This document shows, piece by piece, positions 36,169-36,831 of a DNA stretch of 64,000 bases. The stretch is taken from assembly GCF_030409835.1 (NCBI RefSeq), contig NZ_JAUFQO010000012.1:62001-126000 (forward strand), read 5' to 3'. The first letter of the stretch is position 1. Every line of letters starts with the position of its first letter. The stretch comes from Lutimonas halocynthiae (GTDB lineage: Bacteria; Bacteroidota; Bacteroidia; Flavobacteriales; Flavobacteriaceae). The position numbers were made by a program, and so were the translations under genes. Below the pieces are notes generated by a model, which was not told where the DNA came from, did not search any database, and saw nothing but the letters and a program-made list of their open reading frames with translations.

Positions 36169-36176
36169 GTCAAAAA

Positions 36177-36347
36177 AAAGCACTTCTGGATGATGAAGTG
36201 CTTTAGCTTACTAACTCAAAATTAATTTTTAATGAAGTACAAAATTTTTGTGAGGAATTTTGTACGATACGAAAATAAGAAATATTTAAGGTATTCACAA
36301 GTAGATTTCTAATTTATTTGATAATTCAGTTAAATAATTAGTTTTTT
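36177..36347 (+). ncRNA. Tandem hairpin-leader unit, copy 1
   Basis: Stem AAAGCACTTC (36177-36186) pairs with GAAGTGCTTT (36195-36204) across an 8-base loop. The box follows at 36205-36226. An ATG at 36232 opens a 26-codon frame (to 36312, starting MKYKIFVRNF). A weak AT stem (36322-36326 with 36336-36340) precedes six T residues (36342-36347). The hairpin lies 8 bases after the punA stop and may also end that transcript. Whether it is a free RNA, a terminator plus leader, or a decayed gene start is not decided by the sequence. Confidence 0.5.
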
Positions 36348-36427
36348 ATTGTGAATTATGGTGGTTTTGAGTGATAAAGCTGATGATGATACAATTTTTC
36401 GAATAAATTAATAATTCCTAAAACCTA

Positions 36428-36587
36428 AAAAGCACCTCTAAGAAGAGGTGCTTTTAGCTTACTAACTCAAAATTAATCATAATGAAAACAAAATTAGTGG
36501 GGAATTTTGCTTTGTCTTATTAATTGCAAATCCTATGCCAAAATCAGTTATTAATGTTAATATTTTATTAATAAGTGGTTTTTTTTT
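36428..36587 (+). ncRNA. Tandem hairpin-leader unit, copy 2
   Basis: A perfect 12-bp stem (AAAAGCACCTCT at 36428-36439 with its complement at 36444-36455) has an AAGA loop. The box is at 36456-36477. An ATG at 36482 opens a 13-codon frame (to 36523, MKTKLVGNFALSY). The tail ends in nine T residues (36579-36587). A TTG (36367-36369) and the partial -7 box TACAATTTTTCG (from 36390) lie upstream with suitable spacing but imperfect sequence. Confidence 0.5.
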
Positions 36588-36672
36588 GATTATTTGTGTT
36601 GAAGCGGCATTTTTTTATGGTGTATTCTCAAATTTTACTCATTTTAAGGTCAACCGTAATTTTTATAAACAT

Positions 36673-36831
36673 AAAAGCACCTCTGTGAAGAGGTGCTTTT
36701 AACTTACTAACTCAAAATTAATCATATGAAGTCAAAATTAATGGGGAATTCTGCTTCGATAAATTAACATCAAAATCTATACCAAAAAACTCCTATTGTT
36801 GTTAATCATATGTTAATTTGAATAATTTTTT
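36673..36831 (+). ncRNA. Tandem hairpin-leader unit, copy 3
   Basis: A perfect 12-bp stem (36673-36684 with 36689-36700) is capped by GTGA, a GNRA-type tetraloop. The box is at 36701-36722. An ATG at 36726 opens a 13-codon frame (to 36767, MKSKLMGNSASIN). The tail reaches a T tract (36826-36831) at the end of lipA on the other strand. TAATTTTT (36657-36664), near the -7 consensus, would start transcription at the hairpin base. Confidence 0.5.

Follow-up and report, generated by a model that had tools for sequence, protein, structure and literature searches.

Three tandem repeats lie between the punA and lipA genes of Lutimonas halocynthiae, and the question is what they encode and on which strand. 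The window is the whole stretch of DNA that was analysed, 64,000 nt of a single contig. One flank of the gap is a PNP_UDP_1 phosphorylase, in keeping with a purine nucleoside phosphorylase (punA), and the other is a radical-SAM protein that matches LIAS_N weakly, in keeping with a lipoyl synthase (lipA). The first-pass annotation described three copies of one unit with box spacings of 251 and 245 bases, each with a hairpin, a short ORF and a T tract. It proposed a new small-RNA or orphan-leader family on the plus strand. The copies are there as described. The boxes of the three units (u1, u2 and u3) are spaced 251 and 245 from start to start, the repeat family (D1) starts at 36202, 36453 and 36698, and the third copy is 96% identical to the first. 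On the plus strand a perfect hairpin comes before each box and a short frame with an ATG start comes after it, and the T run is present as well, aligned among the copies.

The box is 20 nt long and reads ATTAATTTTGAGTTAGTAAG on the minus strand. Repeat search places it at 36207..36226 in u1, 36458..36477 in u2 and 36703..36722 in u3, and no other part of the units varies so little. The claim that it is absent elsewhere in the window holds for the whole genome (3.99 Mb), where the exact 16-nt core is found at only these 3 places. Allowing a single mismatch adds one further place, the start of a skp/ompH-type gene. The comparison with Rfam that the annotation had recommended gives no match in the window at the curated gathering thresholds. 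The lowest E value of the sub-threshold list (0.0039) belongs to BTnc231 at 26 bits against a cut-off of 80, and we take these matches as noise. On 14 related loci Rfam matched nothing except tRNAs. What stands of the original proposal is a tandem small-RNA family without an Rfam match; the orphan leader is not supported.

Strand and distribution of the repeats

The repeats are real, but they read as minus-strand genes and not as plus-strand units. A terminator scan calls three hairpins as intrinsic terminators, at 36172..36204 (u1), 36426..36456 (u2) and 36672..36701 (u3), on the minus strand only. The u1 terminator comes directly after the stop of punA, which is on the other strand, and is possibly shared with it. 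For wider counts we used 61 units that were retrieved either with the exact box or through their similarity to u2; because they are related to each other, they do not give independent counts. They remain from 73 box sites after exclusion of a skp start (L002), the start of another gene in another genus (L013), offset repeats of counted units (L008 1280 and L042 1282), five box-only RNAs (L055, L056, L103, L104, L105), L139, and two sites too close to a contig end (L047 85 and L123 108). A terminator stem of at least 8 is present in 60 of the 61 non-redundant units with enough flank. The G+C core is followed on the minus side by a mean of 7.65 T in 10 (at least 7 T in 54/60 units) and on the plus side by a mean of 5.95 T in 10 (at least 7 T in 19/60 units). 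There are 40 sequence versions of the terminator 5' arm among the units, which means that the hairpin persists although its sequence varies.

The plus-strand features can be read in another way. The ATG of the supposed short ORF is lost in some copies (L053, L054), so this is not a conserved gene; what looked like an ORF is a start codon seen in antisense. The T tract of the plus strand, which had been taken for the 3' end of an RNA, lies upstream of the minus-strand promoter. A scan for sigma70-type promoters is at chance level, with 10 found and 10.1 expected. The leader or ORF reading of the plus strand was rejected because the terminators are on the minus strand only and the ATG is not conserved. 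An RNA of 160 bases starting at 36428 and 36673 is not supported; on the minus strand, the RNAs are predicted to begin near 36514 (u2) and 36758 (u3).

The exact 20-nt box was searched for in 84,980 species genomes and found in 33 stretches, from assemblies of Flavobacteriaceae, Flavobacteriia, Flavobacteriales and Bacteroidia and from Lutimonas saemankumensis, whose locus (L140) likewise holds three units. A search of the genus gives some match in 22/22 genomes and a body-plus-box unit in 20/22. The other two, G158 and G160 (70% and 74% complete), have just a shorter RNA that carries this box; in G160 a susC start is seen as well. Both flanks are seen in 21 locus records, which are 13 distinct loci; all of them are between punA and lipA with the units on the lipA strand. 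The number of units there is 1 (G162, G146), 2 (G164, G165, G166, G167, L141) or 3 (G025, G149, G155, G156, G159, G168). Units are also found elsewhere, between other protein genes (L118, L120, L121, L122). G146, which belongs to another genus, has 2 units, one adjoining lipA and one elsewhere. The five box-only RNAs occur in G158, G160, G162 and G164. They have TAnnTTTG (a near form in L056 and L105) just before the box, and different terminator letters. Their 5' end would be the box itself, a plan closer to that of FopS, a small RNA of Bacteroides. An exact box without the rest of the unit is seen at L139:6262. Hairpins of a similar kind are found beside different genes in other genera (e.g. 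L011, L023).

Promoters and anatomy of the predicted RNAs

Each unit is probably a small-RNA gene of compact build, about 90 nt long, with a promoter, a 5' hairpin, the box and an intrinsic terminator. u2 and u3 have sigma54-type -24/-12 elements on the minus strand, TTTGGCATAGGATTTGCA at 36525..36542 and TGGTATAGATTTTGAT at 36769..36788, the latter imperfect at -12. We assume that transcription starts 12 nt after the -12 position (C). From promoter and terminator, the u2 RNA is then predicted to run from about 36514 to 36426 on the minus strand, about 90 nt, and the u3 RNA from about 36758 to 36672, ending in the T-rich stretch that follows 36672. u1 is without a sigma54 element. By sequence reading it has only a weak sigmaA-like -7 element, TATTTTCG at 36270..36277, with a TTG 20 nt upstream (36298-36300), and its RNA of about 90 nt would occupy 36172..36265. 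A sigmaA-type promoter is likely for u1 but not firm. A -24/-12 element at the right distance together with an rpoN gene, the mark of a sigma54-dependent sRNA, is found for u2 and u3 and not for u1.

The pattern TGG[CTA]A[CT]N5TTG, which is the sigma54 -24/-12 form, occurs on the minus strand 60-66 nt before the box in 47/61 units from Lutimonas and near relatives. Its background is 36 per 800,000 strand positions in a 400-kb sample of our own genome. A strict pattern, TTTGGCAYN5TTGCW, matches exactly at 2 places in the genome of 3.99 Mb; one is u2 and the other precedes another ORF. That other site (L305:1501) is about 50 bases before an ORF starting MKVTKINLHEYLKKYFGFSKFKGLQ. There is no recognised chaperone gene among the matches of the strict pattern over this genome. 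rpoN (TIGR02395) scores above cut-off in 21/22 Lutimonas genomes, the exception being a 70%-complete assembly. A typical -24/-12 motif, SM4, is reported for F. psychrophilum in PMC9723704.

The 47 sigma54 units, when aligned, share a TTAAC-type direct repeat, spaced about 11 bp, at a near-fixed distance upstream of -24. It is TTAATAAAATATTAACA in u2 (36555..36571) and TTAACATATGATTAACA in u3 (36800..36816), both on the minus strand, and is a candidate activator site. A sigma54 promoter needs an activator, so these RNAs should be made upon a signal. The 14/61 units without a sigma54 element include u1 and, judged by place, its punA-side counterparts in several relatives. Two of the 14 have TAnnTTTG, the Bacteroidetes form of the sigmaA -7 element, 48-49 nt before the box, and the remaining ones have weaker sites or none.

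The 5' hairpin of u2 (36485..36513) is AAAGCAAAATT, loop CCCCACT, AATTTTGTTTT. That of u3 (36728..36757) has a C-rich loop, and in u1 (36237..36265) the arms are GTACAAAATT/AATTTTGTAC. A stem of at least 7 is present in 57/61 units versus 0.239 of shuffled controls, and one of at least 8 in 48/61 versus 0.091. Stems altered on both sides that still pair weigh more than this count; examples are CAAAGTT/AACTTTG (L052), AACAATATT/AATATTGTT (L057) and the arms of u1. RNAalifold on a MAFFT alignment of the 61 units recovers no more than one short stem that hardly varies (-0.6), since the loops are of unequal length among units, and the stems were counted unit by unit after that.

susC start codons as predicted targets

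The RNA body is complementary to susC translation starts in computed duplexes. In our own genome 406 genes were scored, 27 TonB-type genes and 379 control genes from the window and 20 stretches of 20 kb. The energies ignore accessibility. The best partner of u2 is the start of a susC gene (L069, MKTKLSGI) at -39.2, and the best control is at -31.7. The best partner of u3 is another susC start (L064, MKSKIIFF) at -34.9, with the best control at -32.7. For u1 an internal Met of L089, a TonB-type gene, comes first of the 406, and L069 is fourth. L069 and L064 both encode TonB-plug proteins and have SusD-family genes directly downstream. The u2 duplex spans -29 to +34 around the AUG of L069, with the 5' hairpin of u2 pairing to the susC start ATGAAAACAAAGTTAAGTGG. 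The u3 duplex on L064 spans -18 to +29, and the u3 hairpin with the next bases is antisense to ATGAAGTCAAAA. None of 1000 shuffled RNAs equals the u2 duplex, and likewise none of 1000 for u3. When the sense strand of each locus is scanned the best site is at the start codon, at -38.8 versus -26.8 elsewhere for u2 and -37.1 versus -31.4 elsewhere for u3. By eye, the MKTK-type susC start (L093-L101; ACAAAGTTAAGTGGAATTTTG) can form a hairpin that mirrors the 5' hairpin of the RNA. Pairing may begin loop to loop.

A BLAST search leads mainly to susC starts as well. Across the 22 Lutimonas genomes u2 has 18 matches outside units, with two weak unit-like matches (G161:C331, G150:C309) left out of the sorting. 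Five are the box-only RNAs, 2 are reversed hairpins inside units, and 11 are in protein-gene places. All 11 are at a start codon, 10 of them of susC-like genes of the MKTK type and 1 of skp/ompH. TIGR04056 genes coincide with 8/10 of the susC-like matches, and the susC assignment of L098 and L100 is by N-terminus alone. The first-pass annotation had guessed that real leaders carry related sequence, and they do, mainly at susC starts. Its orphan-leader and decoy roles are not supported, and the predicted RNA is antisense to the mRNA starts it was thought to copy.

The duplex test covered 13/22 genomes of the genus, with the own-genome TonB-type genes and 59 susC starts from relatives (60 loci were retrieved, and L266 is without a usable start). 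G150 was left out (18 susC matches, 9% contamination). Each control gene and each own TonB-type gene was tried with three start codons and each susC gene of the relatives with up to four, which gives the latter a slight advantage, and all 379 controls come from our own genome. A unit and a retrieved MKTK-type susC are both available in 10 genomes (G000, G025, G149, G152, G154, G155, G156, G157, G162, G168). In 10/10 of these at least one unit ranks it first against the 379 controls, with one of the first ranks tied with a second susC. Some units rank it lower: 11 and 5 for units 0 and 2 of G155, 3 for unit 0 of G168, 6 and 3 for u3 and u1 of G000, and 2 for both L124 and L050. G151, G159 and G166 (72-84% complete) are without an MKTK-type susC in the set, and their best susC ranks are 8, 45 and 131. 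The match of u3 to the MKSK-type susC is seen in our own genome only; it ranks 71 in G025 and 23 in G149, where the MKTK-type susC ranks 1.

A second and wider RNA family is found with the L019 query. Its body is conserved and distinct (AAGTTTATTGAGTGGTTACTTTAAACTT followed by GTAATTCATATTTTTGGTTGGTTAGTTAGT), and its intrinsic terminator is similar. Some match is present in 203/397 Flavobacteriaceae genomes, many via the terminator alone, and at E < 1e-15 there are 55 genomes from 38 genera among the matches listed. A sigma54-type element is present in 29/30 loci of this RNA (L160-L189, near position 1500 of the locus). Rfam gives no match on ten L019-type loci. This RNA also looked like a susC antisense at first. 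That idea is not supported, as its best susC ranks, with ten susC loci per genome, are 8 (G070), 32 (G195) and 9 (G061).

Competing readings and known systems

We argue that the units probably encode trans-acting sRNAs of about 90 nt on the minus strand that are controlled by sigma54 and repress SusC translation. u2 and u3 would start from the sigma54-type promoters with their conserved upstream direct repeat, and u1 probably from its weak sigmaA-like promoter. The 5' part and the middle of each RNA would pair across the start codon of susC-family mRNAs, chiefly those of the MKTK(L/F)SG type. This would block ribosome loading, which is what PMC11697453 reports for FopS on a susC mRNA of Bacteroides, and less outer-membrane SusC transporter would be made when the sigma54 signal is on. 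Computation supports the strand, promoter motif, structure, conservation, synteny and susC-start complementarity above controls.

It is worth considering a different set of partners. The RNAs could be minus-strand sRNAs that reach their main partners through the invariant box, these being non-susC envelope genes or an RNA-binding protein, with the susC match secondary. The box is the part that varies least and it stands alone in the five shorter RNAs. When the box alone is scored against 407 genes susC ranks 36 and 63, so susC does not explain why the box is invariant. Its best partner of the 407 is L236:2929, the start of a small protein whose glycine-zipper match is weak and below cut-off, and that start is also the second-best partner with each of u1, u2 and u3. 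The skp/ompH start is third of the 407, having been included because BLAST had found it. The box may serve other envelope mRNAs or a protein. Even so, the matches of the box alone are short, and the body outside it is conserved too and in 10 genomes pairs with susC starts far better than with controls. We judge this reading unlikely, though it is the most serious of the alternatives. At L106 (G000:C1), the start of an OmpH-family gene in our own genome only, 15/16 bases of the box complement are seen, and this skp/ompH start is a possible further target.

Both remaining alternatives do without a trans-acting RNA from the minus strand. Plus-strand decoys, leaders or short ORFs could copy the susC start and titrate a regulator, and the plus-strand sequence does resemble susC leaders and starts. 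However, terminator-like sites are confined to the minus strand, the sigma70-type scan is at the expected number, the sigma54 elements are on the minus strand at a fixed distance, and the ATG is lost in some copies, which makes such decoys very improbable. The repeats could also be plain terminators, or an inert repeat between convergent genes, without a separate RNA. The first hairpin is directly after the punA stop and similar hairpins are found elsewhere (L011, L023). This does not account for a promoter element, 5' hairpin, body and box that are kept together with the hairpin, nor for units at other loci, and we give it hardly any credence.

The sRNA reading with susC as the main target can be tentatively placed in a larger circuit. 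In F. psychrophilum, promoters with the sigma54 motif precede GroESL, DnaK, DnaJ, HtpG, ClpB, Lon, Skp and one sRNA (Rfp36), a set that its authors connect with protein quality control and envelope stress (PMC9723704). By analogy, sigma54 promoters at chaperones and Skp suggest a circuit like that of sigmaE with RybB and MicA. Sigma54 of the Flavobacteriaceae might then be an outer-membrane stress sigma factor, with the tandem sRNAs as its repressor arm, shutting off SusC translation once envelope chaperones are induced, and the L019-type RNA as another branch. We offer this as a speculation that is somewhat more doubtful than not. Transcription, repression and the link to envelope stress are what we infer here.

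The closest known system is in Bacteroides thetaiotaomicron, where FopS binds near the susC mRNA start codon and represses translation, as PMC11697453 describes. The units resemble FopS and GibS (PMC11697453, PMC7366714) in being small and paralogous with an intrinsic terminator. Like FopS they pair around the susC start codon, in computed duplexes that are the best among controls. FopS, in the same sources, is about 65-70 nt with a single-stranded 5' seed, whereas the units are predicted at about 90 nt with a 5' hairpin (stem of at least 7 in 57/61). It has sigmaABfr promoters, whereas the units have sigma54-type elements in 47/61 and a tandem punA-lipA locus. Its described partner is RbpB (RRM-1), and our own genome (99.9% complete) gives no match to PF00076 (RRM_1) at E 0.001. 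FopS is said to be deposited in Rfam, and there is no Rfam gathering match in the window, although the Rfam copy used may not include FopS. The five box-only RNAs resemble the plan described for FopS, a single-stranded 5' seed and then a terminator. That the units are FopS itself is not shown; the predicted target site is as in FopS.

Other comparisons concern the sigma factor. Rfp36 of F. psychrophilum, a species of the same bacterial family, is a putative regulatory RNA whose start has been mapped and which has a sigma54 motif (PMC9723704). In Salmonella and E. coli the sigmaE-dependent RybB and MicA (PMC1804206) are alike in that mRNAs of outer-membrane proteins are lowered by sRNAs under the control of an alternative sigma factor. 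They differ in the sigma factor and in the targets, and stress induction is an analogy in our case. RybB and MicA are Hfq-dependent. The Qrr sRNAs of Vibrio are likewise several similar copies under sigma54 control, but they differ by their quorum-sensing targets and by Hfq. Among the papers listed for sigma54 and sRNAs in flavobacteria or Bacteroidota, subscription papers and preprints aside, there is no report of such a susC-directed RNA. SusC/SusD pairs are main nutrient gates of the Bacteroidota. Our reading is directly testable since it names its targets, predicts where the RNAs start and offers a candidate activator site. SusC-silencing sRNAs have already been shown in Bacteroides, and the units, if the reading is true, would be a sigma54-controlled version in marine flavobacteria.
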